A stretch of 36,087 nt of DNA from Chitinivibrionales bacterium (GCA_014728215.1 WJLZ01000203.1:1-36087); one strand, 5' to 3'; shown: positions 3,071-19,374, counted from the first letter of the stretch. Notes: a model not told the origin generated them from the sequence alone. Translations and numbers: made by a program.

Positions 3071-3134
3071 TAAACCACAATTTCCGTTCTTATCTGCGCA
3101 CATCGGCAAAATCAGCGTCATCCGCGTTCTATCC
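3071..3134. repeat. Dispersed repeat R1, short divergent copy
   Basis: AAACCACA near 3072 and the tail CGTCATCCGCGTTCTATCC (3116-3134) match the two ends of the 566-692 element, with a diverged middle. As at 687, the stop codon of the neighbouring minus-strand gene (TAG, 3131-3129) lies inside the repeat end. Confidence 0.6.
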
Positions 3135-4259
3135 TCGTATCGCTTTTATAATCCGCTGCTGGTCCTCTTTTTCCAGGTACGGATGAAAGGGCACGCTGAA
3201 AATCCGGTCCGCAATCGATTCCGATACCGGAAAATCGCCTTTTGTATGCCCCAGCAATGAAAAGGCGTCCTGCAGGTGAAGCGGTTTGGGGTAATAAATT
3301 GCTGCCGGGATATTTGCAGCCTTGAGTTTCCCGATAATTTCATCACGATTATCGCTCACAATCGCGTACTGTGCCCATGCCGACATGCTATGTTCGGGCA
3401 CGGTCTGCAAGGTAAAACCGCCGCTCAATGCTTCCCCATACCGATGTGCGACACCCTGGCGGTTCTCCAGCTCCTTGTCGAACAGGTCGAGCTTGCAGAG
3501 CAGCACCGCGGCCTGCATGGTGTCCATTCTTCCGTTGAGACCGATCCGCACATTATCGTACTTATTGCTTCCCTGACCGTGGATCCTGATCGAGGTAATT
3601 TTTTCGCTGAGCGCATCATCATTTAAGAATACGGCGCCACCGTCACCATAACACCCCAGGGGTTTGGCAGGGAAAAAACTCGTTGCCGCCATGTCTCCCA
3701 GGCTGCAGGCTCTTTTGTTTTTATAGCGCGCGCCGAAACTCTGGCAGGCGTCTTCCAGAACAAAAAGGTTGTTTTCCCGGGCGACTTTTCCTATGGTATC
3801 GTACTCGGCGGGACATCCGAATATATCGACCGGGATTACGCCCCGTGGTTTCAGGCCCTCAGGCGCGCCCGGCGAAGACTTTTTACCGCTCGTTACATCA
3901 GCGATCGCCTGTTGCAGTTTGCCGGCATCGATATTGAATGTCTCCGGATTGATATCAACAAATACCGGGGTCGCTCCCAGAAGGGAAATAACCTCGGCGG
4001 TGGCAATGAACGTAAAGGGCGTGGTAAAAACAGCATCACCCGGACCGATATCATAGGCCATCAGTGCTAAAAGAAGCGCATCGGTGCCGCTGGAACAGCA
4101 CACACAATGCTTTACCCCGCAGTAGTTCGCAAGTTTTTCTTCAAGCTCGAAAATTTCGGGCCCCATGATATATTTGCCGTGGGACAGAACCGTTTCAATC
4201 CGCTTTTTTAGCGAGGTTTCAATTAATGCCTGCTGGGCCTTGAGATCAATGAATTGCAT
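3129..4259 (-). CDS. DegT/DnrJ/EryC1-family sugar aminotransferase, WbpE-like
   Basis: PLP-dependent aminotransferase acting on a nucleotide-linked keto-sugar. The sequence strongly resembles WbpE, which makes UDP-2-acetamido-3-amino-glucuronate from the 3-keto sugar: FIDLKAQQA at the start, SSGTDALLLAL at 56-66, VLEDACQSFGA around 167-177, and FFPAKPLGCYGDGG with the PLP lysine at 199. The length (376 residues) fits, with a Lys/Pro/Gly-rich insert at about 121-140 that WbpE lacks. The ATG at 4259 is chosen because family similarity starts there; it overlaps the preceding small gene by 14 bases. The dehydrogenase and acetyltransferase of the Wbp pathway are not in the window, so the actual substrate is uncertain. 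The stop codon lies in a dispersed repeat. Confidence 0.88.
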   Translation of the reverse strand: MQFIDLKAQQALIETSLKKRIETVLSHGKYIMGPEIFELEEKLANYCGVKHCVCCSSGTDALLLALMAYDIGPGDAVFTTPFTFIATAEVISLLGATPVFVDINPETFNIDAGKLQQAIADVTSGKKSSPGAPEGLKPRGVIPVDIFGCPAEYDTIGKVARENNLFVLEDACQSFGARYKNKRACSLGDMAATSFFPAKPLGCYGDGGAVFLNDDALSEKITSIRIHGQGSNKYDNVRIGLNGRMDTMQAAVLLCKLDLFDKELENRQGVAHRYGEALSGGFTLQTVPEHSMSAWAQYAIVSDNRDEIIGKLKAANIPAAIYYPKPLHLQDAFSLLGHTKGDFPVSESIADRIFSVPFHPYLEKEDQQRIIKAIRG

Positions 4260-4446
4260 TTCCCGGCTTATCCTCAATGTTAATTCGTGTTTCGAACCAG
4301 AATTGTGCGGCATTGGAGACCCATTCCAACCGCTGCTCGGCAGTCATGTGCTGAAATGCAGTATGGCCGTCAAAATCCGATTCCGACAGTGTCTCTATTT
4401 TCTTGCGGAAACTGATGGTTCCCTTTTCAAATTCTTCTCTCTTCAT
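4246..4446 (-). CDS. Small partner protein of the upstream nucleotidyltransferase
   Basis: A 66-residue protein of unknown function. It begins with the ATGA overlap shared with the nucleotidyltransferase stop and ends 14 bases inside the aminotransferase, so it is translationally linked on both sides. It has a basic/acidic helical first half and then the stretch MTAEQRLEWVSNAAQF. Short proteins with an EQRL-W-type helix often accompany DUF6036/AbiEii-like nucleotidyltransferases; that resemblance is from memory and not proof. It may be the second component of a toxin-antitoxin-like pair. Confidence 0.6.
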   Translation of the reverse strand: MKREEFEKGTISFRKKIETLSESDFDGHTAFQHMTAEQRLEWVSNAAQFWFETRINIEDKPGNAIH

Positions 4447-4943
4447 AGCAGCTTTTTCAGCGTGTCGATATCGATTTTATCTTTATCCCGTGGCGGCTTT
4501 ATTTTCTCTTTTATTTCAATGAGTTTTGATTTCGAAATGACCCTGATTGTATCTCCCCTGATTGTAATGCATTCACTTGAAGGGAGTAAATTTTCATACA
4601 GATGCTCTCTGGTCAGCATAATATCGATATGCCTGAATGGCTTTTCGTTATCGATCAAGCTGAAAACCACCGCATTTTTCTCCTTGATCATTATCGCTAC
4701 CTTTTCAGGATCGCTGATACTGAGCAAGGGAACCGGAACGCGGGGGACCAGACCCAGCTTTTTGACCACCCGGTCGAGGTGCTCGATATTTTTTTTGTCC
4801 ATTTTGACCGACAGATCAAGATCGAGGGTCATCCGTTCCACTCCATGAAGGACCGCCGCAACACCACCGCATACAATAAATTCGACCTTCGCCCTCGCCA
4901 GTTCATGGAGCATTTCCAGAAGATGACTTTGCTGATCACCCAT
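4443..4943 (-). CDS. Nucleotidyltransferase-fold protein (DUF6036/AbiEii-like)
   Basis: A 166-residue nucleotidyltransferase-fold protein. The signature GG (26-27) followed by DLDL (41-44) fits the polymerase-beta-like fold, and a later KLIEIKEKIKPPRDKDKID segment is typical of family members that pair with a small protein. The ATG at 4943 (MGDQQSHLLE) is preferred over 4964 because it gives an 8-base overlap with the epimerase and removes residues without similarity. Overlaps of 8 and 4 bases embed it in the sugar operon. The role is unknown: a toxin-antitoxin module or a regulator of the sugar enzymes are both possible. Confidence 0.7.
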   Translation of the reverse strand: MGDQQSHLLEMLHELARAKVEFIVCGGVAAVLHGVERMTLDLDLSVKMDKKNIEHLDRVVKKLGLVPRVPVPLLSISDPEKVAIMIKEKNAVVFSLIDNEKPFRHIDIMLTREHLYENLLPSSECITIRGDTIRVISKSKLIEIKEKIKPPRDKDKIDIDTLKKLL

Positions 4944-5892
4944 GATAGCTCTTATACCAGGCAATAAATTTCGGCACGCCTTCGCTTATTGGCGTGGTGG
5001 GTTCAAAGCCCAGCATCTCCTTTGCATGGCGAATATTGGCATAGGTAGCCTTGACATCACCCATCTGCATGGGTAAAAGCTCTTTGTGTGCCTCACACCC
5101 CAGACATTTTTCTATAAGCGTAATTAAATCGACAAGGTTCTCGGAGCGGTTATTTCCCAGATTAAAGACCTCACACTGCGCCAGATCAGGAGCGTCGAGT
5201 GATGCAACCACTCCCTGTACAATATCATCGATATAGGTAAAATCCCGCTGCATATCGCCTTTGTTAAACACCTTGATCGGCTCCCCGGCCAGGATCGCCT
5301 TGGTAAAGAGCCACATGGCCATGTCGGGCCGACCCCAGGGACCGTAAACCGTGAAAAACCGGTGCCCGATTGTCTGAAAACCGTACAGATGTGAATAACA
5401 ATGGGCCATCAGCTCATTGGCTTTCTTGCTGGCCGCATATAAACTCACCGGCGTATCCACCCGGTCCTGCTCCGAAAAGGGAAGCTTGGTGTTACCGCCA
5501 TACACACTCGACGACGACGCGTAGACCAGGCGCTTGATTCCGGTATGACGGCACCCTTCTAATACATTTAAAAATCCCGAAATATTCGAGTCAATATAGG
5601 CATGGGGATGCTCAAGCGAGTAGCGCACACCGGCCTGGGCGCCAAGGTTGCAGACAACCTCGTAGGGACCCGACTCAAAAGCCTTTTTCATACCCTCAGC
5701 ATCATGAAGATCACATCGGATAACCCGGTATCCGGGATATTTCTCCAAGATCGCATTCCGGTCCTCCTTGATTTTCACATCGTAGTAGGGATTGAAATTG
5801 TCGAGTCCGGTAACGCTGTCGCCTCTATCAAGCAGCTTCCGTGCGACATGAAACCCGATAAAGCCGGCTGTGCCGGTGAGGAGAATGTTCAT
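4936..5892 (-). CDS. NAD-dependent nucleotide-sugar epimerase, UDP-glucuronate 4-epimerase-like
   Basis: Extended short-chain dehydrogenase expected to interconvert UDP-glucuronate and UDP-galacturonate. The NAD-binding motif GTAGFIG lies at 7-13, the SSS triad serine region at 126-129, and the catalytic YAASK at 152-156. NPYYDVKIKEDR and HRFFTVYGPWGRPDMA are typical of the UDP-glucuronate 4-epimerase branch. The length, 318 residues, is a little short of the usual 330-340. It follows galU by 64 bases and overlaps the nucleotidyltransferase gene. With the glucuronokinase-like kinase and GalU two genes upstream it completes a plausible uronic-acid precursor route. Confidence 0.88.
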   Translation of the reverse strand: MNILLTGTAGFIGFHVARKLLDRGDSVTGLDNFNPYYDVKIKEDRNAILEKYPGYRVIRCDLHDAEGMKKAFESGPYEVVCNLGAQAGVRYSLEHPHAYIDSNISGFLNVLEGCRHTGIKRLVYASSSSVYGGNTKLPFSEQDRVDTPVSLYAASKKANELMAHCYSHLYGFQTIGHRFFTVYGPWGRPDMAMWLFTKAILAGEPIKVFNKGDMQRDFTYIDDIVQGVVASLDAPDLAQCEVFNLGNNRSENLVDLITLIEKCLGCEAHKELLPMQMGDVKATYANIRHAKEMLGFEPTTPISEGVPKFIAWYKSYHG

Positions 5893-5956
5893 GATACTAA
5901 TTCCCTGTTTTTGACATTTGACCTTTGAATGTTATGCGGTGAGAGTTTGAAATGCA

Positions 5957-6838
5957 TTAGCATTCATTCGCCAACTCTTTTATCCACCTTCGCAACTCAT
6001 CGCCCATATCATCCCGTTTCAGTCCGAAAAGCACGCTTGCCTTGATAAATTCGGCTTTGTTGCCGATATCGTAGCGCTTGCCTTCGAGGTGTTTGCCGTA
6101 AATAGCCCGGTCGTTGAGCATGAGCTTGAGCGCATCGGTGATCTGGATCTCTTCGTTGATTCCCGGGGGTGTCGATTCAAGGTAGGTGAAAATGTCGGGC
6201 GAAAGTACGTATCTGCTGGCGACCACCATATTTGAGGGGGCGTCTTCGGGCTTGGGTTTTTCTACAAAATTGTTGATCAGATACACCCGGTCATCGATAC
6301 ACTTGCCGTCGATGACACCATATCTGCTTACCCGCTCCCGGGGAACTTCTTCCACAGCAATGACACTCTCGTGATAGCGGTCGTAGATAGTCATTAACTG
6401 TTTAATCGCCGGTGTTGTTTGGGTTTCGATAACCGTATCGCCCAAGAGCACGGCAAAGGGGTTATTGCCGACGTGGCATTTTGCATGGGCGATGGCATCA
6501 CCAAGCCCTTTCAATTCCTTCTGCCATACAAAATGAATATTTGCCAGATCGGTTATTCGACGGACTGCATCGAGTTCGGCCTGCTTTCCCTTTTCACTCA
6601 GGACATTTTCCAGCTCGAAATTGCGGTCGAAATGCTCCTCGATCGCCCGTTTACCTTTTCCGATAATCATCAGGATGTCGGTTATTCCCGAAGCAACGGC
6701 TTCTTCGACAACATACTGGATTGTCGGCGTGTCGACAATAGGAAGCATCTCTTTGGGCTGGGATTTTGTTGCCGGCAAAAATCGTGTTCCCAGCCCCGCG
6801 GCCGGTATAATCGCTTTAGTAACCGCAGATTTACTCAT
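5957..6838 (-). CDS. galU: UTP-glucose-1-phosphate uridylyltransferase (GalU)
   Basis: Makes UDP-glucose from UTP and glucose-1-phosphate; related enzymes also accept other sugar-1-phosphates. At 293 residues it is canonical in length and motif: GLGTRFLPATKSQPKEMLP from residue 15 (nucleotide binding), IQYVVEEA, LLGDTVI with the metal aspartate, NFVEKPKPEDAPSN and GNKAEFIKA. The ATG at 6838 overlaps the kinase stop as ATGA, so the two proteins are made together. That coupling raises the possibility that this copy serves glucuronate-1-phosphate rather than, or as well as, glucose-1-phosphate; the sequence itself does not decide this. Confidence 0.95.
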   Translation of the reverse strand: MSKSAVTKAIIPAAGLGTRFLPATKSQPKEMLPIVDTPTIQYVVEEAVASGITDILMIIGKGKRAIEEHFDRNFELENVLSEKGKQAELDAVRRITDLANIHFVWQKELKGLGDAIAHAKCHVGNNPFAVLLGDTVIETQTTPAIKQLMTIYDRYHESVIAVEEVPRERVSRYGVIDGKCIDDRVYLINNFVEKPKPEDAPSNMVVASRYVLSPDIFTYLESTPPGINEEIQITDALKLMLNDRAIYGKHLEGKRYDIGNKAEFIKASVLFGLKRDDMGDELRRWIKELANEC

Positions 6839-7845
6839 TCGTCACTTTCCGGTGAAATGTCGGGCTTGATAACCTCAACTCCCGTGGGTGTCAGGGCTTC
6901 ACAGATCGATTGAAACATAGTTTCATCGGTATAGGTCCCGATTATTGCGCCGCCGGAGCCGGTGAACTTTGCGCTTGCTCCAACGCCCCGGGCAGCTTCA
7001 ACCATGGCGATATTATCTTTACTGATACGGCAGAGTTTTCTACGTATATCAAAATTTTCGTTGAGAAGATCATGGATTCGATCATTCTTTTTCGCAACCA
7101 GCGAATCATGCACCTTATCGGTAAGCTCACCCCATTTGCCCATGGCTTCGATAACCTCAGACTCGCCCCGGTTAAACCTCTCCCGAAGGTTGTTATGAAA
7201 AATATCGGAGCCCTCCGAGAGGTCGGCCCGATAGGCGATATATAACGATGGAAACTGGTCCCGGGACAGCATTTCATAGATGCCATAGCCCTTTTCATCC
7301 ATATGCTTCTGATTGAAATCCATATAGACCGGGCCCTGATAAACCTGGGCCACCCGGTCCTGAAGACCTGCGGATATGCCGAGCTGTTCCTTTTCAACCG
7401 ATAAAATAAGATTAGCAAGGACAGGTTTGACAATTTTCACCCCATAATAGGCCATGAGTGCCCGAAAACAGGCAGTAATGATCGCACTCGAGCCCGCAAG
7501 TCCCACAAGATGGGGGATATTCGATGAATAACGAATGGTGAAGTTATCGTTATGAAGAACAATTCCTTTTTCGGAGCAATAATCGTGAAATACCTTTATG
7601 GCCGCTTTCAAAAGACGGATCCCGCCGTAATACCCGTGATGGTTGACATCGAGCACAAGATCCTGAATGCTTTGAAATACCGAATGGTCACGCACGCTCG
7701 GAAGGATCTCCAACTCCGGTGATTCGTACAGCACCACCCCGGCATAAAAATTCCTGAATGTAAAAGCGATCGTCTTCCCGAAATAACCGTCGGAGGGATT
7801 ACCGATCAGCGCAGCGCGGGGAAAAGCTTGAGTTCGAATAATCAT
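6835..7845 (-). CDS. GHMP-family sugar kinase closely resembling plant glucuronokinase
   Basis: GHMP-fold kinase, 336 residues. Its motifs track plant glucuronokinase (D-glucuronate to glucuronate-1-phosphate) along the whole length: LIGNPSDGYFGKTI at 13-26, GYYGGIRLL at 71-79, the ATP loop GLAGSSAI at 115-122, the stretch GISAGLQDRVAQVYQGPVYM at 156-175, NFDIRRK at 264-270 and KFTGSGGA at 293-300. Generic GHMP kinases share only the fold. The 4-base overlap with galU supports sequential action: kinase product plus UTP gives a UDP-sugar. There is no Shine-Dalgarno; an 8-base tandem repeat lies 9 bases upstream of the ATG. The alternative is a related kinase for another uronic acid or sugar. 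Confidence 0.82.
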   Translation of the reverse strand: MIIRTQAFPRAALIGNPSDGYFGKTIAFTFRNFYAGVVLYESPELEILPSVRDHSVFQSIQDLVLDVNHHGYYGGIRLLKAAIKVFHDYCSEKGIVLHNDNFTIRYSSNIPHLVGLAGSSAIITACFRALMAYYGVKIVKPVLANLILSVEKEQLGISAGLQDRVAQVYQGPVYMDFNQKHMDEKGYGIYEMLSRDQFPSLYIAYRADLSEGSDIFHNNLRERFNRGESEVIEAMGKWGELTDKVHDSLVAKKNDRIHDLLNENFDIRRKLCRISKDNIAMVEAARGVGASAKFTGSGGAIIGTYTDETMFQSICEALTPTGVEVIKPDISPESDE

Positions 7846-8005: not shown

Positions 8006-9043
8006 TTATCTCGATTTGACCGTTTCCCGGTCGGCTTTTACCATTATCTCAACCAGCTGATCAAAGGTCACGGTCGGTTTCCATCCAAGTTCCTGGTTTG
8101 CCTTTGTTGGATTCCCACAGAGCTGTTCGACTTCGGTAGGACGATAGTATTTCGGATCGACTTCCACGACCGTTTTTCCGCTCTTTTTATCAACACCTCT
8201 CTCATTCTCATTTTCGCCCTGCCATTCGATTTCCATATCGAGGCATGCAAAGCTCTTTTCCACAAACTCACGGACCGTATGCATTTCACCGGTGGCGATA
8301 ACGTAATCATCGGGCGTCTCTTTTTGCAGCATGAGCCACATGGCATTCACATAATCGGGTGCGTATCCCCAGTCCCGGCGGGCACTGAGATTTCCCAGCC
8401 GGATACAGTCCTTGGTCCCGGCTTGGACTCCGGTAACGCCCAGTGTAATTTTTCGGGTGACAAAATTCTCTCCCCGTCGGGGGGACTCGTGGTTAAAAAG
8501 GATGCCGTTGCTTGCATGAAGATTATAGGCTTCACGGTAGTTTTTGACAATCCAGAACGCATACAGTTTGGCTACCCCATAGGGCGAACGGGGATAGAAC
8601 GGTGTTGTTTCGCTCTGGGGAACTTCCTGCACTTTTCCGTAGAGTTCTGATGTCGACGCCTGATAGAATTTGCATTTCAATCCGGTCTCCTTGATGGCGT
8701 CGAGCAGGCGAAGGGTTCCCAGGGCATCGACCTCGGCGGTATACTCGGGCACCTCGAAGGAGACTTTCACATGAGACTGAGCGGCAAGATTATAGATCTC
8801 ATCGGGTTGAATTTTCTCCACCAACCGGTTGAGATTACTGCTGTCGGAGACATCGCCGTAGTAAAGGTAAAAATTTTCCTTCTGCTTGCCTCGCTGATGA
8901 ATATGTTCGATCCGCTCCCGGTTAAAACTGCTCGCCCGACGGATCATCCCGTGGACTTCATACCCTTTATCGAGCAACAGCTCGGTAAGATAAGAACCAT
9001 CCTGACCGGAAACACCGGTAATGAAAGCTTTTTTTGGAGACAT
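8006..9043 (-). CDS. gmd: GDP-mannose 4,6-dehydratase
   Basis: Converts GDP-mannose to GDP-4-keto-6-deoxy-mannose, the precursor of GDP-fucose, GDP-rhamnose or GDP-perosamine. The 345 residues match the family throughout: [15 protein letters not shown] near the N-terminus (NADP binding), [13 protein letters not shown], the Thr/Ser-Glu-Leu-Tyr block [11 protein letters not shown], catalytic YGVAK in [12 protein letters not shown], and [16 protein letters not shown]. The ATG at 9043 has AAGGGA upstream. A promoter candidate with a palindrome between -35 and -10 lies at 9082-9111. The next enzyme (GDP-fucose synthase or reductase) is not in the window. Confidence 0.96.
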
Positions 9044-13403: not shown

Positions 13404-13913
13404 CTAATCGCGCGGTCCGGGAGTGATAAAAAATCCAAACAATAAATGTTCCTCGAAAATTCCTTCGGAAAAGGCGGCCACCTCGACATTCAGACCTATT
13501 CCGACATGGGGAAGGATAGCATACCGAACGCCGGCACCAATAGAACCGAAGGGACGGTTCAAAATATGCTTCCACAACCCGGTTGTTGTCAATCCACCGC
13601 CGCAATACAGAGGAACAGATGCTTTGTTAAAGGTGAATTCATAGCCCGCGCCAAAAGAATTCCACACCTTGAAAAAGGAATTGTGCTTTTCTTCAAAGGC
13701 TAACCCATATCGAACCAGCAGCCCCCTCCATATTTTCCACCGGCCGCTTGCCGCAAGGGTCGCATTAAACTCGCTGTCTTCAAACGATGCTGCACCTGAC
13801 ATGCCCAGTTCAACCGGCCCGGGTTTTCTCTTTTCCGGCAACAGCTCTTCGCCATAGGAAAAACCTGCGCCTGCACCTAATATAATTATAATAGCCATAA
13901 TTGCAGATTTCAT
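13404..13913 (-). CDS. Exported protein, probably a small outer-membrane beta-barrel
   Basis: A 169-residue protein of unknown function. It has a signal peptide (MKSAIMAIIIILGAGAGFSYG, cleavage near residue 21) and then alternating hydrophobic/Gly-rich beta strands (FGAGYEFTF, LYCGGGLTTTG, GAGVRYAIL, GIGLNVEVAAF). It ends in FGFFITPGPRD, close to the aromatic ends seen in outer-membrane barrels. The ATG at 13913 overlaps the GH113-like stop as ATGA, and AAGGAGT provides a good Shine-Dalgarno. It lies between a surface lipoprotein and recG. No specific family is recognised. Confidence 0.7.
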   Translation of the reverse strand: MKSAIMAIIIILGAGAGFSYGEELLPEKRKPGPVELGMSGAASFEDSEFNATLAASGRWKIWRGLLVRYGLAFEEKHNSFFKVWNSFGAGYEFTFNKASVPLYCGGGLTTTGLWKHILNRPFGSIGAGVRYAILPHVGIGLNVEVAAFSEGIFEEHLLFGFFITPGPRD

Positions 13914-14944
13914 TGCCAGTACTCCTTTACCACCCTTTCCGCAGGCCTGCCCCGGGGTGTGTAATCAATAGCAGCAGTGTCTCCCCGATCATTCAACTCC
14001 CACTGCCACCAGAACATGCCATGCAAAAAATCCATTTTTTCCGATGCAATCAATGCTGCACGGTAGCAGTCGGCCTGAAGACGGTCATCCCTGTCGCCTT
14101 TGTGCTCGAAACTCCCGGGATTTTCTGCAGCAAGCGTATGATTCATATACCCGATTTCGGTGAGGAGAACATCACGATGGTGAGAAAGTGAAACATCACG
14201 AAGCATCTCTTTCCATGAGGCCCAGGAAAAGAGCATATCCTCAAGCATCGGATTATTTCTTTTGCTGACCGGAAAATAGGCATTAGCACCGATATAATCC
14301 AGCTTGTTCCAGAATTGAACGCTCAAAACTTCCTGAGGACAACTCGAATATGTAAGCAAACCGCGGAACCGGCTGCGGCAGGAATCGATTATCTCGTGCC
14401 ATAGGTGCGTATCCTGCGAAAGAGCAGTCAATTCGGTACCCACACAGAATATATGGGCCCCCAGGGTATCTGCAAGATGGGCATAATGGAGGATAAATTT
14501 CAGATACGATGCTTTCCATGCCGGCCTGTCCGAGGGAATGATATCCGCCCGGGGATCACCGGTATTCACATCTACATGAGGTTTAACGACAAGGGTGAAT
14601 CCTCTCTTCACAACCCTGTTGCATGCGGAAATAAAATCGGCATCGGGAATCGAACGGGGATCATCCCGGGTGATATGATTTGAACTGATTGTTTCCTGAA
14701 AACCATAGGGTATCAAAACGATAGTGTTAACACCAAGACCGGCAATTTTTTCAAGATTATTATCGAAATCGACGGGATCAAAGGTATTTCGCTCGGTCCC
14801 GTAAAAAAAGATTGTCATTCCCTTATAGGTCGGTTTTTCTTTCACGGAAGCCGGACTGGAAATGTTGGTACAACTTTCAAATGCAAGGAGAAAAACAATA
14901 AGAAAAGGAAGACTGTATCCGAAATTTCGAAAGCAACACATCAT
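13910..14944 (-). CDS. GH113-like glycoside hydrolase lipoprotein
   Basis: A 344-residue TIM-barrel protein resembling family GH113 (beta-mannanase-type). The catalytic glutamates fit: acid/base E171 in FCVGTELTAL and nucleophile E263 in LLTEIGY. Supporting stretches are KGMTIFFYG at the start of the barrel, VVKPHVDV, DYIGANAYFPV and GMFWWQWE. An N-terminal hydrophobic segment (10-21) ends at Cys25 (AFESC), a non-canonical lipobox with Glu at -2; lipid attachment is therefore only probable, with plain signal cleavage or a membrane anchor as alternatives. The ATG at 14944 lacks a good Shine-Dalgarno. It is the first gene of a unit with the barrel-like protein and recG. Confidence 0.75.
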   Translation of the reverse strand: MMCCFRNFGYSLPFLIVFLLAFESCTNISSPASVKEKPTYKGMTIFFYGTERNTFDPVDFDNNLEKIAGLGVNTIVLIPYGFQETISSNHITRDDPRSIPDADFISACNRVVKRGFTLVVKPHVDVNTGDPRADIIPSDRPAWKASYLKFILHYAHLADTLGAHIFCVGTELTALSQDTHLWHEIIDSCRSRFRGLLTYSSCPQEVLSVQFWNKLDYIGANAYFPVSKRNNPMLEDMLFSWASWKEMLRDVSLSHHRDVLLTEIGYMNHTLAAENPGSFEHKGDRDDRLQADCYRAALIASEKMDFLHGMFWWQWELNDRGDTAAIDYTPRGRPAERVVKEYWQ

Positions 14945-15060
14945 TTGGCACGGTTTTTCCGGTTTTCTCCACCTTCACATACAGGAGCCTCTTATCCCTC
15001 ACCGGGGCGGTTAATTAATACTGCGCACAAAGTGCTCTGTTTATTGCCGGATCCTTCATT

Positions 15061-15096
15061 ACCAAAAAAGCCCCGGACGAAGACATCCAGGGCTTT
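15061..15096 (-). terminator. Intrinsic terminator of hcp
   Basis: On the minus strand a 13-bp stem (15096-15084 with 15079-15067, two G-T wobbles, loop TCTT) contains AAAGCCC / GGGGCTTT. It runs straight into TTTTTT. It lies 26 bases after the hcp stop codon. Confidence 0.88.
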
Positions 15097-15121
15097 ATTA
15101 TTCCATCTGAAAATCGGGAAC

Positions 15122-15607
15122 TTACCTTCCTTCTCTCCAGGAATCGGAAGCCTGAAGGTTTCCATCGAGGTAGGTCCAGGTGATCTTCTGGTAACGCATG
15201 CTCACCTTTTCGAGATGAAGATAGCGTTCCTTTGTGGGGTCTTTAACATTGTACATGATCGGCTGGACCGAACAAATCTTCACATCTTCTAAAAGATGGT
15301 TGAAATATTCGGTTTCGGTGCCTGTATCATCAATACGGAACCACTTCAGCTCGACCTGCGTGAAAGTCTGGCCCTCACACACTGCTTTGTAAAGGTACGG
15401 CGATGAAGCATCATAGGCTTTCACAAGCGTAATGGCTTCATGCTTTCTGGTACCTGTCAGCTTACCGGTATCGGGATCGGTGGGGATCCGCACTTCATGA
15501 TGAAACTCATGAACTTCGATACTTCCTTCACGGCCAGCGACATCCACAGAACCTTTAACTTCACTGCCGTTTTCATCTGTCATCCACATATAGGCCGGTA
15601 TTGGCAT
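15122..15607 (-). CDS. hcp: Type VI secretion tube protein Hcp
   Basis: Subunit of the hexameric inner tube that the T6SS sheath ejects. At 161 residues it matches Hcp1-family proteins in length and layout: MPIPAYMWM at the start, GREGSIEVHEFHHEV, the loop GKLTGTRKHEAITLVKAYD, KWFRID and LHLEKVSMRYQKITW near the end. The ATG at 15607 has a strong AAAGGAG. It has its own promoter region with a CRP/FNR-type palindrome and its own terminator, so it can be expressed far above tssABC, as a tube protein must be. About 190 bases separate it from tssC. Confidence 0.94.
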   Translation of the reverse strand: MPIPAYMWMTDENGSEVKGSVDVAGREGSIEVHEFHHEVRIPTDPDTGKLTGTRKHEAITLVKAYDASSPYLYKAVCEGQTFTQVELKWFRIDDTGTETEYFNHLLEDVKICSVQPIMYNVKDPTKERYLHLEKVSMRYQKITWTYLDGNLQASDSWREGR

Positions 15608-15655
15608 GACCTACTCCTTTCAAAGAAGGGTGAATTGTTTTTTGTTTACGACTTA

Positions 15656-15699
15656 AATATATTATTCCAGCACATGCAAAGTCTGTGATTCAAATCACA
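15656..15699 (-). promoter_or_regulatory. hcp promoter with CRP/FNR-type site
   Basis: TGTGATTTGAATCACA (15699-15684, minus strand) is a perfect palindrome that matches the CRP consensus TGTGA-N6-TCACA in all ten fixed bases; it also has the TGAT-N4-ATCA core shared with FNR-type sites. A -10 candidate TATATT lies at 15661-15656 with no good -35. If transcription starts near 15649, the site centres about 42 bases upstream, the class II activator position. Confidence 0.65.
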
Positions 15700-15800
15700 A
15701 ACCATGCACTTTTTTAACAGTTCGATTTTCGGCAGCCCATACCGGACCATCCTCAAATATGCGCAGCTCACGAAAAGTTGACACATAGAACACACTGTCT

Positions 15801-17321
15801 CTACTTACTTTTCGGCATCTGCGATACCAGCGACAGATTGATATCGATACCCTCGATCTGGAAGTGCGGCATGACCGCAAGGCCAACCGTGAAAAATCCA
15901 GGATTATCCTCGATCTCTTTCACTTCAACTTCAGCGGCTTTCAGCGGATGGGTAGCGATCAGCTCGGGACCGGGATCGTTCATTTCGGTTACCAGTCCGT
16001 TAATCCATTCCTGCAATTCATCCTGCAGTACTTTCCGGCTCTTGGTGGATCCGATATTTTCACGCTGTATTACCTTCAGGTAATGGGCGATACGGGAAAC
16101 AAGGAAAATATAGGGAAGCCGCGAATTAATCCGCATATTTGCCGTGATTGCAGGATCATCATACTCCTGTGGTTTCTGAGTCGAATTAGCAGAAAAGAAA
16201 CAGGCGTAGTTTCTGTTTTTATAGAATGAAAGCGGAATGAATCCTTCCTGGGCAAATTCAAATTCCCGCGTTTCAGGAATGAGAATCTCGGTAGGAATTT
16301 TCATCTGTTTGCCTTTACCGACATCGTACAGGTGAATCGGCAGATCCTCGACCTTTCCGCCGGCTTCCGGGCCTCTGATCTGCACACACCATCCGTTGTC
16401 AACAAATGAGCGCACCATGTTGGCTGCGAAAGCAAAGGATGCATTCCCCCAGAGATATTTTTCGTGGTCGTCGCCTTTCACACCCTCTTCATAATTGAAT
16501 TCCTTCACCGGCTGCGTTTCGGAACCGTAGGGCAGACGGAGTGCAAACCGGGGAAGCACCAGGCCGACATATCGAGAATCCTCGGACTCCCTGAAACTGT
16601 TCCATTTCAGAAATTCGGAACGCTCCATGTAGTTATGAAGGTCTTCGATTTTCGGAAGGTCGTGGACATTATCCTTCCCAAAAAATTTCGGTGTTGCCGA
16701 ACCGATAAAGGGGCAATGGCATGATGATGAAACCTTTGCGATTTCCTGCAGCAGACCGACATCGGCCGCGCCGCTGTTAAAATCGTAATTGGAGACGATT
16801 GCGCCGTAGGGTTCACCGCCGGGTGTGTCATACTCATCGGTATAGACATGTTTGTAAAGCCCCGACTGGATTGTTTCGGGAGCATCTTCGAAATCTTCCG
16901 CCAATTCATCCTTGGATGCATCCAGAAGGTCGATCTTGACATTTTTCCGGAAATCGGTGCGGTCGACCAGAAACTTCAGACTCCGCCATGCCGATTCCAT
17001 TTTCTGGAATTTCTCATTATGTATGATTTCATCCAGCTGGTGTGACAGTTTTTTGTCGATTTCGGCGATATGCTGATCGAGCAGCACCTTATCGATTTTA
17101 TCGACGGTCTGTTCAGATTCGAGAACGCTGCTGACAAAGAAGGCCAGGGCCGCACCGATTCGTTCATTGGCATTACTGTCGGCCAGTGCCTCGGCATTCT
17201 TATAATTGACAACATCCACCGCTGATTCGGGGACCGATAAATTCATTGTCTGATAAATATATTCCAGGCTGGTTGCATTTTCGGCCTGTGCTTCCGCCTG
17301 TTTTTCTTCTTGATTTGCCAT
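15801..17321 (-). CDS. tssC: Type VI secretion contractile sheath large subunit TssC
   Basis: Large subunit (VipB type) of the contractile sheath that wraps the Hcp tube. At 506 residues the length is typical. Family features include ALAFFVSSVLESEQTVDKID near 40-60, WRSLKFLVDRTDFRKNVKID, the conserved LVLPRFALRLPYG, an NASFAFAANMVRSF stretch and the C-terminal SRLPYIFLVSRIAHYLKVIQ. The ATG at 17321 has GAGGAG at good spacing. It follows tssB by 50 bases that include a perfect 16-base palindrome. No terminator is seen between it and hcp, so read-through is possible. Confidence 0.95.
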   Translation of the reverse strand: MANQEEKQAEAQAENATSLEYIYQTMNLSVPESAVDVVNYKNAEALADSNANERIGAALAFFVSSVLESEQTVDKIDKVLLDQHIAEIDKKLSHQLDEIIHNEKFQKMESAWRSLKFLVDRTDFRKNVKIDLLDASKDELAEDFEDAPETIQSGLYKHVYTDEYDTPGGEPYGAIVSNYDFNSGAADVGLLQEIAKVSSSCHCPFIGSATPKFFGKDNVHDLPKIEDLHNYMERSEFLKWNSFRESEDSRYVGLVLPRFALRLPYGSETQPVKEFNYEEGVKGDDHEKYLWGNASFAFAANMVRSFVDNGWCVQIRGPEAGGKVEDLPIHLYDVGKGKQMKIPTEILIPETREFEFAQEGFIPLSFYKNRNYACFFSANSTQKPQEYDDPAITANMRINSRLPYIFLVSRIAHYLKVIQRENIGSTKSRKVLQDELQEWINGLVTEMNDPGPELIATHPLKAAEVEVKEIEDNPGFFTVGLAVMPHFQIEGIDINLSLVSQMPKSK

Positions 17322-17352
17322 AATCGTTACTCCTCGGTTTGTATGACAATAG

Positions 17353-17368
17353 GGTATGCCGGCATACC
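17353..17368. repeat. Perfect 16-base palindrome between tssB and tssC
   Basis: GGTATGCC followed directly by GGCATACC. In RNA it would form a short hairpin between the two sheath genes, upstream of the tssC Shine-Dalgarno. The theme resembles the hairpin at 379-400. It could affect mRNA processing or bind a protein. Confidence 0.55.
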
Positions 17369-17371
17369 GGC

Positions 17372-17893
17372 TTACTTGCTCTCTTCCTTGCTTTCTTCTT
17401 CAGTTTCTTCCGGAACAATTTTCTTTAATTCTTCCTGCAACGATTTCGCCGTATCAGGATCTTTGATGATATCTTCAAGACGTTTTCTGAATTCTCTGTT
17501 GTCTAAAAGATTCGATTTCAGATCCTTGATCAGGTTCCGGGCTGCAAGAAGCTTGCTGAGGGCGGGGACCTCCTTGGCGATATTTTCGGGCTTAAAAGAA
17601 TCCATGTTTTTAATATCAAGATCGACATTGATATTGCCCTCTCCGGTCAGTTTGTTTTCGACCGAATATTTCAGGTTGAGGTCCATGCTTTCCATAACCT
17701 GGGTGAAATTGTTCTTGTTGATATTGATCTTTTCCCGATCGACCACCCGTTCATCATGCTCCTCGCCTGAAAACTCTCCCATGACAAGCATCTTCAGAGG
17801 CAATTCAACTTTCTTCTTTGCATCACCCTTACCCACATCAAGTTTAAGATTGATCCGTGCAGGGGGGATTTCATTTTGAAAACTTCCGGCCAT
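17372..17893 (-). CDS. tssB: Type VI secretion contractile sheath small subunit TssB
   Basis: Small sheath subunit (VipA type), partner of TssC. The 173 residues show the family start (ARINLKLDVGKGDAKKKVEL), KMLVMGEFSG, the INKNNFTQVMESMDLNLKYSV block, and the acidic helical C-terminus (LARNLIKDLKSNLLDNREFR-like helix). It ends in an unusually Glu-rich tail (EETEEESKEESK). The ATG at 17893 is 23 bases after tssA. Gene order A-B-C on one strand indicates one transcript. Confidence 0.95.
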   Translation of the reverse strand: MAGSFQNEIPPARINLKLDVGKGDAKKKVELPLKMLVMGEFSGEEHDERVVDREKININKNNFTQVMESMDLNLKYSVENKLTGEGNINVDLDIKNMDSFKPENIAKEVPALSKLLAARNLIKDLKSNLLDNREFRKRLEDIIKDPDTAKSLQEELKKIVPEETEEESKEESK

Positions 17894-17916
17894 AATAACC
17901 TGCCTTTCCGTTTAAT

Positions 17917-19374
17917 TTATTTGTTTAATGTAAATGCCTTAGTCGGGTTTATCTGACTTATCTTTTTTACCGTATCATTGAGTTTTGTTGTCATCTCCAC
18001 CTGTTGATTCTGCGGCTTGTTTGCCCTTCCAACCTTAAGCGCCTGTACCAAAACCGCCCATGCTTCCACCGCCAGATCGGGATTCCACAAATGGAGATGG
18101 TAGGTGTCGATTTTTTCGTCAAGGGCCTCCAGAATCGAAACGGCGATATCGGGTTGTTTACCCTTGAGGAGGAGTTGCCCCATCAAAATAGACCGGTTGA
18201 AATTATCTTCTTCGCACGAAGAACTCCTGATTCCATTCTGCAGCAGCTCCAGCGCCTTATCGACTTTTCCGGTGGCTGCCAGTGACTGGGCTTCACGTTT
18301 TTCCTTTTCAAGGATATCTTCATCATCGTCTTCATCGCCGTCATTATCGCCCCCCTTGCCTCCCGAGAGTGCAGACATGACTTCGGATTTTATCCAGCTC
18401 TTTGTCGTATCATCGCAAAACGGTGTCCCATCGGTAAAAGCCAACTCCACCAGCGTGGGTATCCGTTTAAGGAGCACGGCGGTTTCAATAAGAATGATAT
18501 CCCGTATTGCTGCATTGCTTTCACCAAGCTCCTTGCAGGCGGTTGCGGAATATCGTTGCAGATCGAGCCAGAGGTGGTTTCCGGCGCCGGTAAACGTTTC
18601 TTCGGACTTTTCAAAGAGTGTTTTCCAGTCTTTCTGACCAATCAATCCTTCAAGAAAGGCTTTCTGCTGGGCATTGGGTCCTTGGAGCTGCGTTTTGCCG
18701 TCGGATGCCGGAGGTGCATTCTCCATCAGATCCCACCTGAGTGAACGCATAAGACGGTATCCCATTATTTTTACGGGCTCTTTTTCAATAAGAAACCGGG
18801 CAAGTTTTTTTCCTTCAGTCTGGGCCTGCTTTGGCGTCTCATAGGCCTGAGCTTGATTCTGGGCAGGTTGTTGCTGTGACTGCTCGGCTTTGGGCTTCGG
18901 CTTACAAGCCTTTTCCCAGGACTGGGCTTTTTTAAAGAGATTCGATGGAAAGGGAGAACCATCGGGAAATTTTGATTCCAGAATACTTTTCAGTTTTGTA
19001 AGCGATTCAACAAGCCGCGTTATGTGTTCATAGTCGCTTTCGGTGGGCTTTTTCTGATTACAGAATTCGGTATATCGCTCTTCTGAAATCCATTTAATTG
19101 CCAGCCCTTTGGCCCGCGGGCGAGCAGGGAAACAATTATCATAATCCTGTTCTGTAAGTGATGTCATGCCCTCAAACAGATCTGCAAATGCTTCCCACTG
19201 TTCGTCACGAAGCAACGCAAAGCTTAAAAAGGCCATCACCCGCAGATCCTTTGATTTTTCGGCCAGGATTTTCCTGCTGTTATTTATGATCAATTCATAA
19301 TCGATCCCTCCAAGTTTCCCTATTTCACTCTTGAGGGCATCGAAATCGGTATCGTAATTGACATTCTCTCCCAT
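17917..19374 (-). CDS. tssA: Type VI secretion protein TssA (ImpA N-terminal family)
   Basis: TssA-type protein that caps or starts sheath assembly at the baseplate. The N-terminal ImpA domain covers about 10-130: DYELIINNSRKILAEKSKDL, then FADLFEGMTSLTEQDYDNCF, which resembles the family's signature region where a subunit count is followed by a C-F/W-P motif. A Gln/Ala-rich linker (about 155-190) leads to a VasJ-like helical C-terminal domain (about 190-485) with an acidic insert (DNDGDEDDDEDILEKEK). The ATG at 19374 has GGAG about 8 bases upstream. It heads the tssABC unit. Confidence 0.85.
   Translation of the reverse strand: MGENVNYDTDFDALKSEIGKLGGIDYELIINNSRKILAEKSKDLRVMAFLSFALLRDEQWEAFADLFEGMTSLTEQDYDNCFPARPRAKGLAIKWISEERYTEFCNQKKPTESDYEHITRLVESLTKLKSILESKFPDGSPFPSNLFKKAQSWEKACKPKPKAEQSQQQPAQNQAQAYETPKQAQTEGKKLARFLIEKEPVKIMGYRLMRSLRWDLMENAPPASDGKTQLQGPNAQQKAFLEGLIGQKDWKTLFEKSEETFTGAGNHLWLDLQRYSATACKELGESNAAIRDIILIETAVLLKRIPTLVELAFTDGTPFCDDTTKSWIKSEVMSALSGGKGGDNDGDEDDDEDILEKEKREAQSLAATGKVDKALELLQNGIRSSSCEEDNFNRSILMGQLLLKGKQPDIAVSILEALDEKIDTYHLHLWNPDLAVEAWAVLVQALKVGRANKPQNQQVEMTTKLNDTVKKISQINPTKAFTLNK

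Follow-up and report, generated by a model that had tools for sequence, protein, structure and literature searches.

Three adjoining genes on the minus strand of a Chitinivibrionales contig (WJLZ01000203.1 of GCA_014728215.1, whose 36,087 nucleotides are the window analyzed here) encode a GHMP kinase, a GalU-type uridylyltransferase, and an SDR resembling UDP-glucuronate 4-epimerases, flanked by other sugar-nucleotide genes. The original prediction had described this trio, including the 4-base overlap of the first two genes, and its coordinates proved exact. The features, all on the minus strand, are as follows.

3129-4313, minus: DegT-family aminotransferase, WbpE-like (amino-uronate pathway), downstream neighbor; 350 bits to WbpE (3nu7)
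4936-5892, minus: UDP-glucuronate 4-epimerase-type SDR, 318 aa; 389 bits to 5u4q, 170 bits to 6zl6
5957-6838, minus: GalU-type UTP--sugar-1-phosphate uridylyltransferase, 293 aa; NCBIfam TIGR01099, 370.5 bits (cutoff 326.8)
6835-6838, minus: ATGA, 4 bases shared by the end of the kinase gene and the beginning of galU, read from the sequence
6835-7845, minus: GHMP kinase, glucuronokinase-like, 336 aa; Pfam PF00288 (GHMP_kinases_N), E 1.9e-13
7354-7368, minus: GLQDR, kinase residues 160-164, with presumed catalytic Asp163; invariant in 60 relatives
7483-7503, minus: ATP-binding loop GLAGSSA, kinase residues 115-121; G115 and A117-A121 invariant in 60 relatives
7783-7803, minus: GNPSDGY, kinase residues 15-21; invariant in 60 relatives, replaces GEHTD of galactokinase-like GHMP kinases
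8006-9043, minus: GDP-mannose 4,6-dehydratase, upstream neighbor; TIGR01472, 570 bits

The kinase ORF is intact and overlaps the galU ORF in a different frame, and the gap between galU and the SDR gene measures 64 bases. A HepT-like RNase gene, half of a likely toxin-antitoxin pair, lies amid the genes of the sugar cluster (2046-2492). Elsewhere in the window, a gene for a GH113-like glycosidase (13910-14944) is followed by type VI secretion genes (region 13910-19374), among them those for the sheath large subunit (15801-17321) and TssA (17917-19374).

The kinase forms its own branch of the GHMP family

The kinase matches Pfam through the GHMP N-terminal domain alone, and it exceeds the cutoff of no NCBIfam equivalog, the best being mevalonate kinase (51 bits versus 163). 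Its nearest sequence relative in the PDB is the distant heptose kinase 3k85 (40 bits), and no close glucuronokinase structure was found in that database. The nearest folds to an AlphaFold2 model built with 60 relatives (pLDDT 90.3, pTM 0.89) are the heptokinase WcbL, mevalonate kinases, and galactokinases. The invariance of GNPSDGY, GLQDR, and most of GLAGSSA, together with a GSGG motif that is mostly invariant across 60 relatives, indicates that this GHMP-kinase fold retains its ATP loop and the Asp presumed to be catalytic. GLQDR aligns with GGKQDQ of 3k85. GNPSD aligns without gaps with the GEHTD of a GHMP kinase fusion encoded on contig C14 of the same genome, in an overall profile match that is weak. 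The Glu of the galactokinase GEHTD lies near C6 of the sugar, and its absence from the GNPSD of the kinase would suit a substrate carrying a carboxylate. Phylogenetically, the kinase family is a GHMP branch of its own, split from other GHMP kinases at 99/98. A sequence presumed to be that of Arabidopsis glucuronokinase falls inside this clade and is 45% identical to the kinase over 304 aa, which we treat as a lead toward a plant-like identity.

Kinase and galU are inherited as a pair

A family-pattern search of GTDB contigs yielded at least 567 relatives of the kinase, the closest named one being a 90% identical kinase in a Chitinivibrionales metagenome bin; viral contigs yielded none. Relatives of the kinase-galU pair occur in Fibrobacterota, Verrucomicrobiota/Lentisphaerae/Kiritimatiellae, Planctomycetota, and Bacteroidota. 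We examined 86 loci, a nonrandom sample made up of the 80 best-scoring loci and a few from the phylum of the window, of which 84 had enough flanking DNA for adjacency to be counted. In 74 of these 84 rows, galU and the kinase gene are immediate neighbors on one strand; as one contig is present twice, this amounts to 73 of 83 distinct loci. The exact 4-base overlap occurs in 25 rows, and one locus (L030) has the reversed gene order. The main exception is Verrucomicrobiaceae, in which the kinase gene stands without an adjacent galU. Because adjacency holds in so many locus rows and across several phyla, the pairing is not due to chance.

The same association appears when whole genomes are surveyed. 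Strong GalU matches (E ≤ 1e-60) are present in 7 of 168 genomes of the phylum, which are precisely the seven with a full-length kinase, and the two genes are adjacent in all seven; these genomes represent perhaps four lineages rather than seven independent events. On a complete, mobilizable plasmid of Rufibacter tibetensis (NZ_CP012644; L161), the kinase gene and galU lie side by side, with no other sugar-nucleotide kinase/transferase or sugar-activation gene flanking them, a hint that the pair is mobile. From the adjacency, the co-occurrence within the phylum, and the lone pair on the plasmid, we conclude that the kinase gene and galU make up a conserved two-gene module whose members are inherited together. 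In one genome of the same order (G021), which has no strong GalU, only the first 28 residues of the kinase are recognizable on a 3.1-kb contig (L038:1145-1228), possibly a decayed or broken copy.

The paired GalU is the only strong copy in its genome

The galU product is a GalU by NCBIfam equivalog and scores 304 bits against YngB of Bacillus subtilis (7b1r). It is the one GalU in the genome above the TIGR01099 cutoff, which led us to reject an additional galU with a housekeeping role, and each of the 43 kinase genomes surveyed likewise contains a single strong GalU. The original prediction had this copy acting on glucuronate-1-phosphate (GlcA-1-P); since there is no second strong galU, the paired enzyme is no extra copy set aside for that substrate. 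It probably also makes UDP-glucose, unless that supply is covered instead by the GalU-like domain of the C14 fusion. This fusion (L037:7761-9683) is a 640-aa protein of the window's own genome with a galactokinase-like GHMP kinase at its N terminus and the GalU-like domain at its C terminus, and fusions of this type occur in many relatives (also at L141-L148 and L155-L157). It is a galactokinase-like protein distinct from the glucuronokinase-like kinase, and a second case of a kinase coupled to a putative uridylyltransferase.

The Gly that precedes Arg-Tyr, kept in the solved GalUs that we aligned, is replaced by Ser or Ala in 39 of the 68 paired GalUs. We found no link between this substitution and the choice of substrate. 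Six characterized UGPases are specific for Glc-1-P, with rates on GlcA-1-P below 10% of those on Glc-1-P (PMC12203929).

Genomic context of the pair

The best solved relatives of the SDR are 5u4q, which was deposited as a dTDP-glucose dehydratase, and the UDP-glucuronate epimerase BcUGAepi (6zl6). Its ASSSSVYG and FTVYGP segments correspond to STSSVYG and FTVYGP of BcUGAepi, so that the carboxylate-binding positions, Thr/Ser-Ser-Ser and a Thr backbone position, are kept; the decarboxylase Glu is absent, as in the sequence pattern of UDP-glucuronate 4-epimerases. The protein thus looks like a candidate UDP-glucuronate 4-epimerase. Epimerases of the UDP-glucuronate type follow the kinase-galU pair in about 20 loci, mostly of planctomycetes, and in four loci a UGDH-like (UDP-glucose dehydrogenase-like) gene comes immediately before it. 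In a genome of the same order (G022; L032), the genes run kinase, galU, DctP, DctQ, an ORF placed where DctM would be expected, and UxaC (glucuronate isomerase); this combination of the pair with a TRAP transporter and uxaC was seen in one genome among the loci examined. UxaC itself is present in 37 of the 43 kinase genomes, that of the window included, indicating that bacteria with the kinase usually metabolize glucuronate. We infer that a uronate substrate fits several of these gene contexts best. In a genome of the same taxonomic family (G037; L028:2507-7158), genes that by eye resemble those for the sulfate adenylyltransferase CysDN and a WbpD-like acetyltransferase flank the same cluster, as might be expected for a sulfated, amino-uronate polysaccharide.

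No nucleotide-sugar dehydrogenase was found within the window. The original prediction had noted as much for UDP-glucose dehydrogenase and had envisaged a locus fed by salvage without that supply. The observation stands for the window and fails for the genome, whose contig C114 encodes a clear UGDH that scores 603 bits against its human counterpart. We therefore reject a UGDH-less genome, and salvage is not the sole source of UDP-glucuronate in this bacterium. The genome also encodes a GDP-mannose dehydrogenase on contig C4 and a TviB-like UDP-GlcNAc dehydrogenase on contig C48 (L036), where a gene resembling Fkp (fucokinase/GDP-fucose pyrophosphorylase) lies beside the TviB-like gene. Searches of the genome for a PF01704-type pyrophosphorylase and for MIOX gave no match, and both searches were silent in the controls as well.

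Relatives of UGDH are present in 33 of the 43 kinase genomes. The other ten, in which a search at E ≤ 1e-40 gave no UGDH relative, keep the kinase with an adjacent galU and contain TviB/WbpA-like, GDP-mannose-dehydrogenase-like, or truncated dehydrogenases and nothing else of this kind. Most of these ten are incomplete bins, and one is the complete chromosome CP070675. Salvage might be the sole source of UDP-glucuronate in CP070675, and the epimerase there could also act on an amino-uronate.

Discussion

The best explanation for the pair, and one that we hold to be somewhat likelier true than false, is that kinase and GalU form a glucuronate salvage module leading from glucuronate through GlcA-1-P to UDP-glucuronate. 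The GHMP kinase would phosphorylate free glucuronate at C1 using ATP, and GalU would couple the resulting GlcA-1-P with UTP to give UDP-glucuronate, alongside its production of UDP-glucose. The SDR, judged by its sequence, would then epimerize UDP-glucuronate to UDP-galacturonate. This route would run in parallel with de novo synthesis of UDP-glucuronate by the UGDH encoded on C114; delivery of the product to EPS is a guess. Against this reading stand the occurrence of the UxaC run in a single genome, the galactose cluster next to the pair in Bacteroidales, the Verrucomicrobiaceae whose kinase gene has no galU beside it, and the low rates of characterized UGPases on GlcA-1-P.

Plants make UDP-glucuronate in a comparable way, through glucuronokinase and UDP-sugar pyrophosphorylase in the myo-inositol oxygenation/salvage pathway, and they too operate this salvage in parallel with the UGDH route. 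The two systems share a GHMP sugar-1-kinase and a UTP-dependent uridylyltransferase, with UGDH alongside. They differ in that the uridylyltransferase is a bacterial GalU here and a large PF01704 enzyme in plants, and in that the genes here overlap in an operon. Another parallel to the bacterial pair is the GKUP of zebrafish and Xenopus, in which a glucuronokinase-type GHMP kinase is likewise tied to a short nucleotidyltransferase of bacterial type. GKUP is a single polypeptide, whereas here the genes are separate and overlapping, with the kinase first and a GalU that exceeds its family cutoff. In the zebrafish protein, the fused bacterial-type nucleotidyltransferase has extremely low activity, and the authors of that study ascribed only lone pyrophosphorylases to bacteria (PMC3938481). 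Fkp, a bifunctional fucokinase/GDP-fucose pyrophosphorylase, also couples a GHMP sugar-1-kinase to NDP-sugar formation, but it is fused, acts with another sugar and nucleotidyltransferase, and belongs to another GHMP branch. Like the canonical GalUs (B. subtilis YngB, Escherichia coli GalU), the paired enzyme exceeds the TIGR01099 cutoff; it differs from them in being inherited together with a GHMP kinase and, in the paired GalUs noted above, in having Ser or Ala for Gly before Arg-Tyr. The SDR resembles BcUGAepi and 5u4q in its SDR fold family and in its carboxylate-binding Ser/Thr positions.

Two other explanations have to be weighed, and the preference of ordinary, characterized UGPases for Glc-1-P (PMC12203929) speaks for both. 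The kinase could activate another sugar, such as galactose, glucose, or galacturonate, whose 1-phosphate GalU would convert to the UDP form. This would agree with the heptokinase, mevalonate kinase, and galactokinase folds nearest to the kinase model, and with five Bacteroidales loci in which the pair sits beside genes for a galactokinase, a sugar transporter, a regulator, and an aldose 1-epimerase. Those galactose loci already contain an ordinary galactokinase, however, and the kinase sequence is remote from those of galactokinases. Uronates are suggested by the neighborhoods with genes for UDP-glucuronate epimerases, UGDH, or UxaC. What is presumably the Arabidopsis enzyme lies inside the kinase clade, and we regard activation of another sugar as rather unlikely.

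Less probable still is a division of labor in which the kinase does act on glucuronate and the GalU beside it makes UDP-glucose only, in which case another enzyme would uridylylate GlcA-1-P and the adjacency would reflect joint regulation of UDP-sugar supply. The single strong GalU per genome, the UGDH of this genome with its relatives in most kinase genomes, and the four loci with UGDH immediately upstream of the pair are what this explanation would lead one to expect. It accounts poorly for the ten genomes (including a complete chromosome) that retain both genes side by side with no UGDH relative at the threshold used, for the restriction of GalU within the phylum to genomes that also have the kinase, and for the Rufibacter plasmid with the pair only. 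The lack of a PF01704-type match in the genome also tells against it, in a search that was equally silent in the controls.

Bacterial UDP-glucuronate is normally credited to UDP-glucose dehydrogenase. The kinds of enzyme considered here are known, and their pairing in bacteria is apparently undescribed: no paper describing a bacterial glucuronokinase was found in the literature searched, which included a minority of subscription papers. The claim may be partly implicit in public annotation, as the KEGG label GLCAK (K16190) has been reported in a gut-metagenome study (PMC10687571). A bolder version of our proposal, which we consider doubtful, is that a uronate-1-kinase and a GalU accepting GlcA-1-P as well constitute a widespread, partly mobile module in the PVC and FCB groups, that this module supplies UDP-uronates in lineages without UGDH, and that the bacterial family is ancestral to the glucuronokinases of plants and animals. 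If glucuronate salvage is the correct reading, hundreds of genes now labeled just "GHMP kinase" would gain a function, and GalU would have an unrecognized second substrate. As separate enzymes that are easy to express, kinase and GalU could also serve in UDP-uronate production, and bacteria that degrade glucuronate-rich polymers could directly reuse the monomer.
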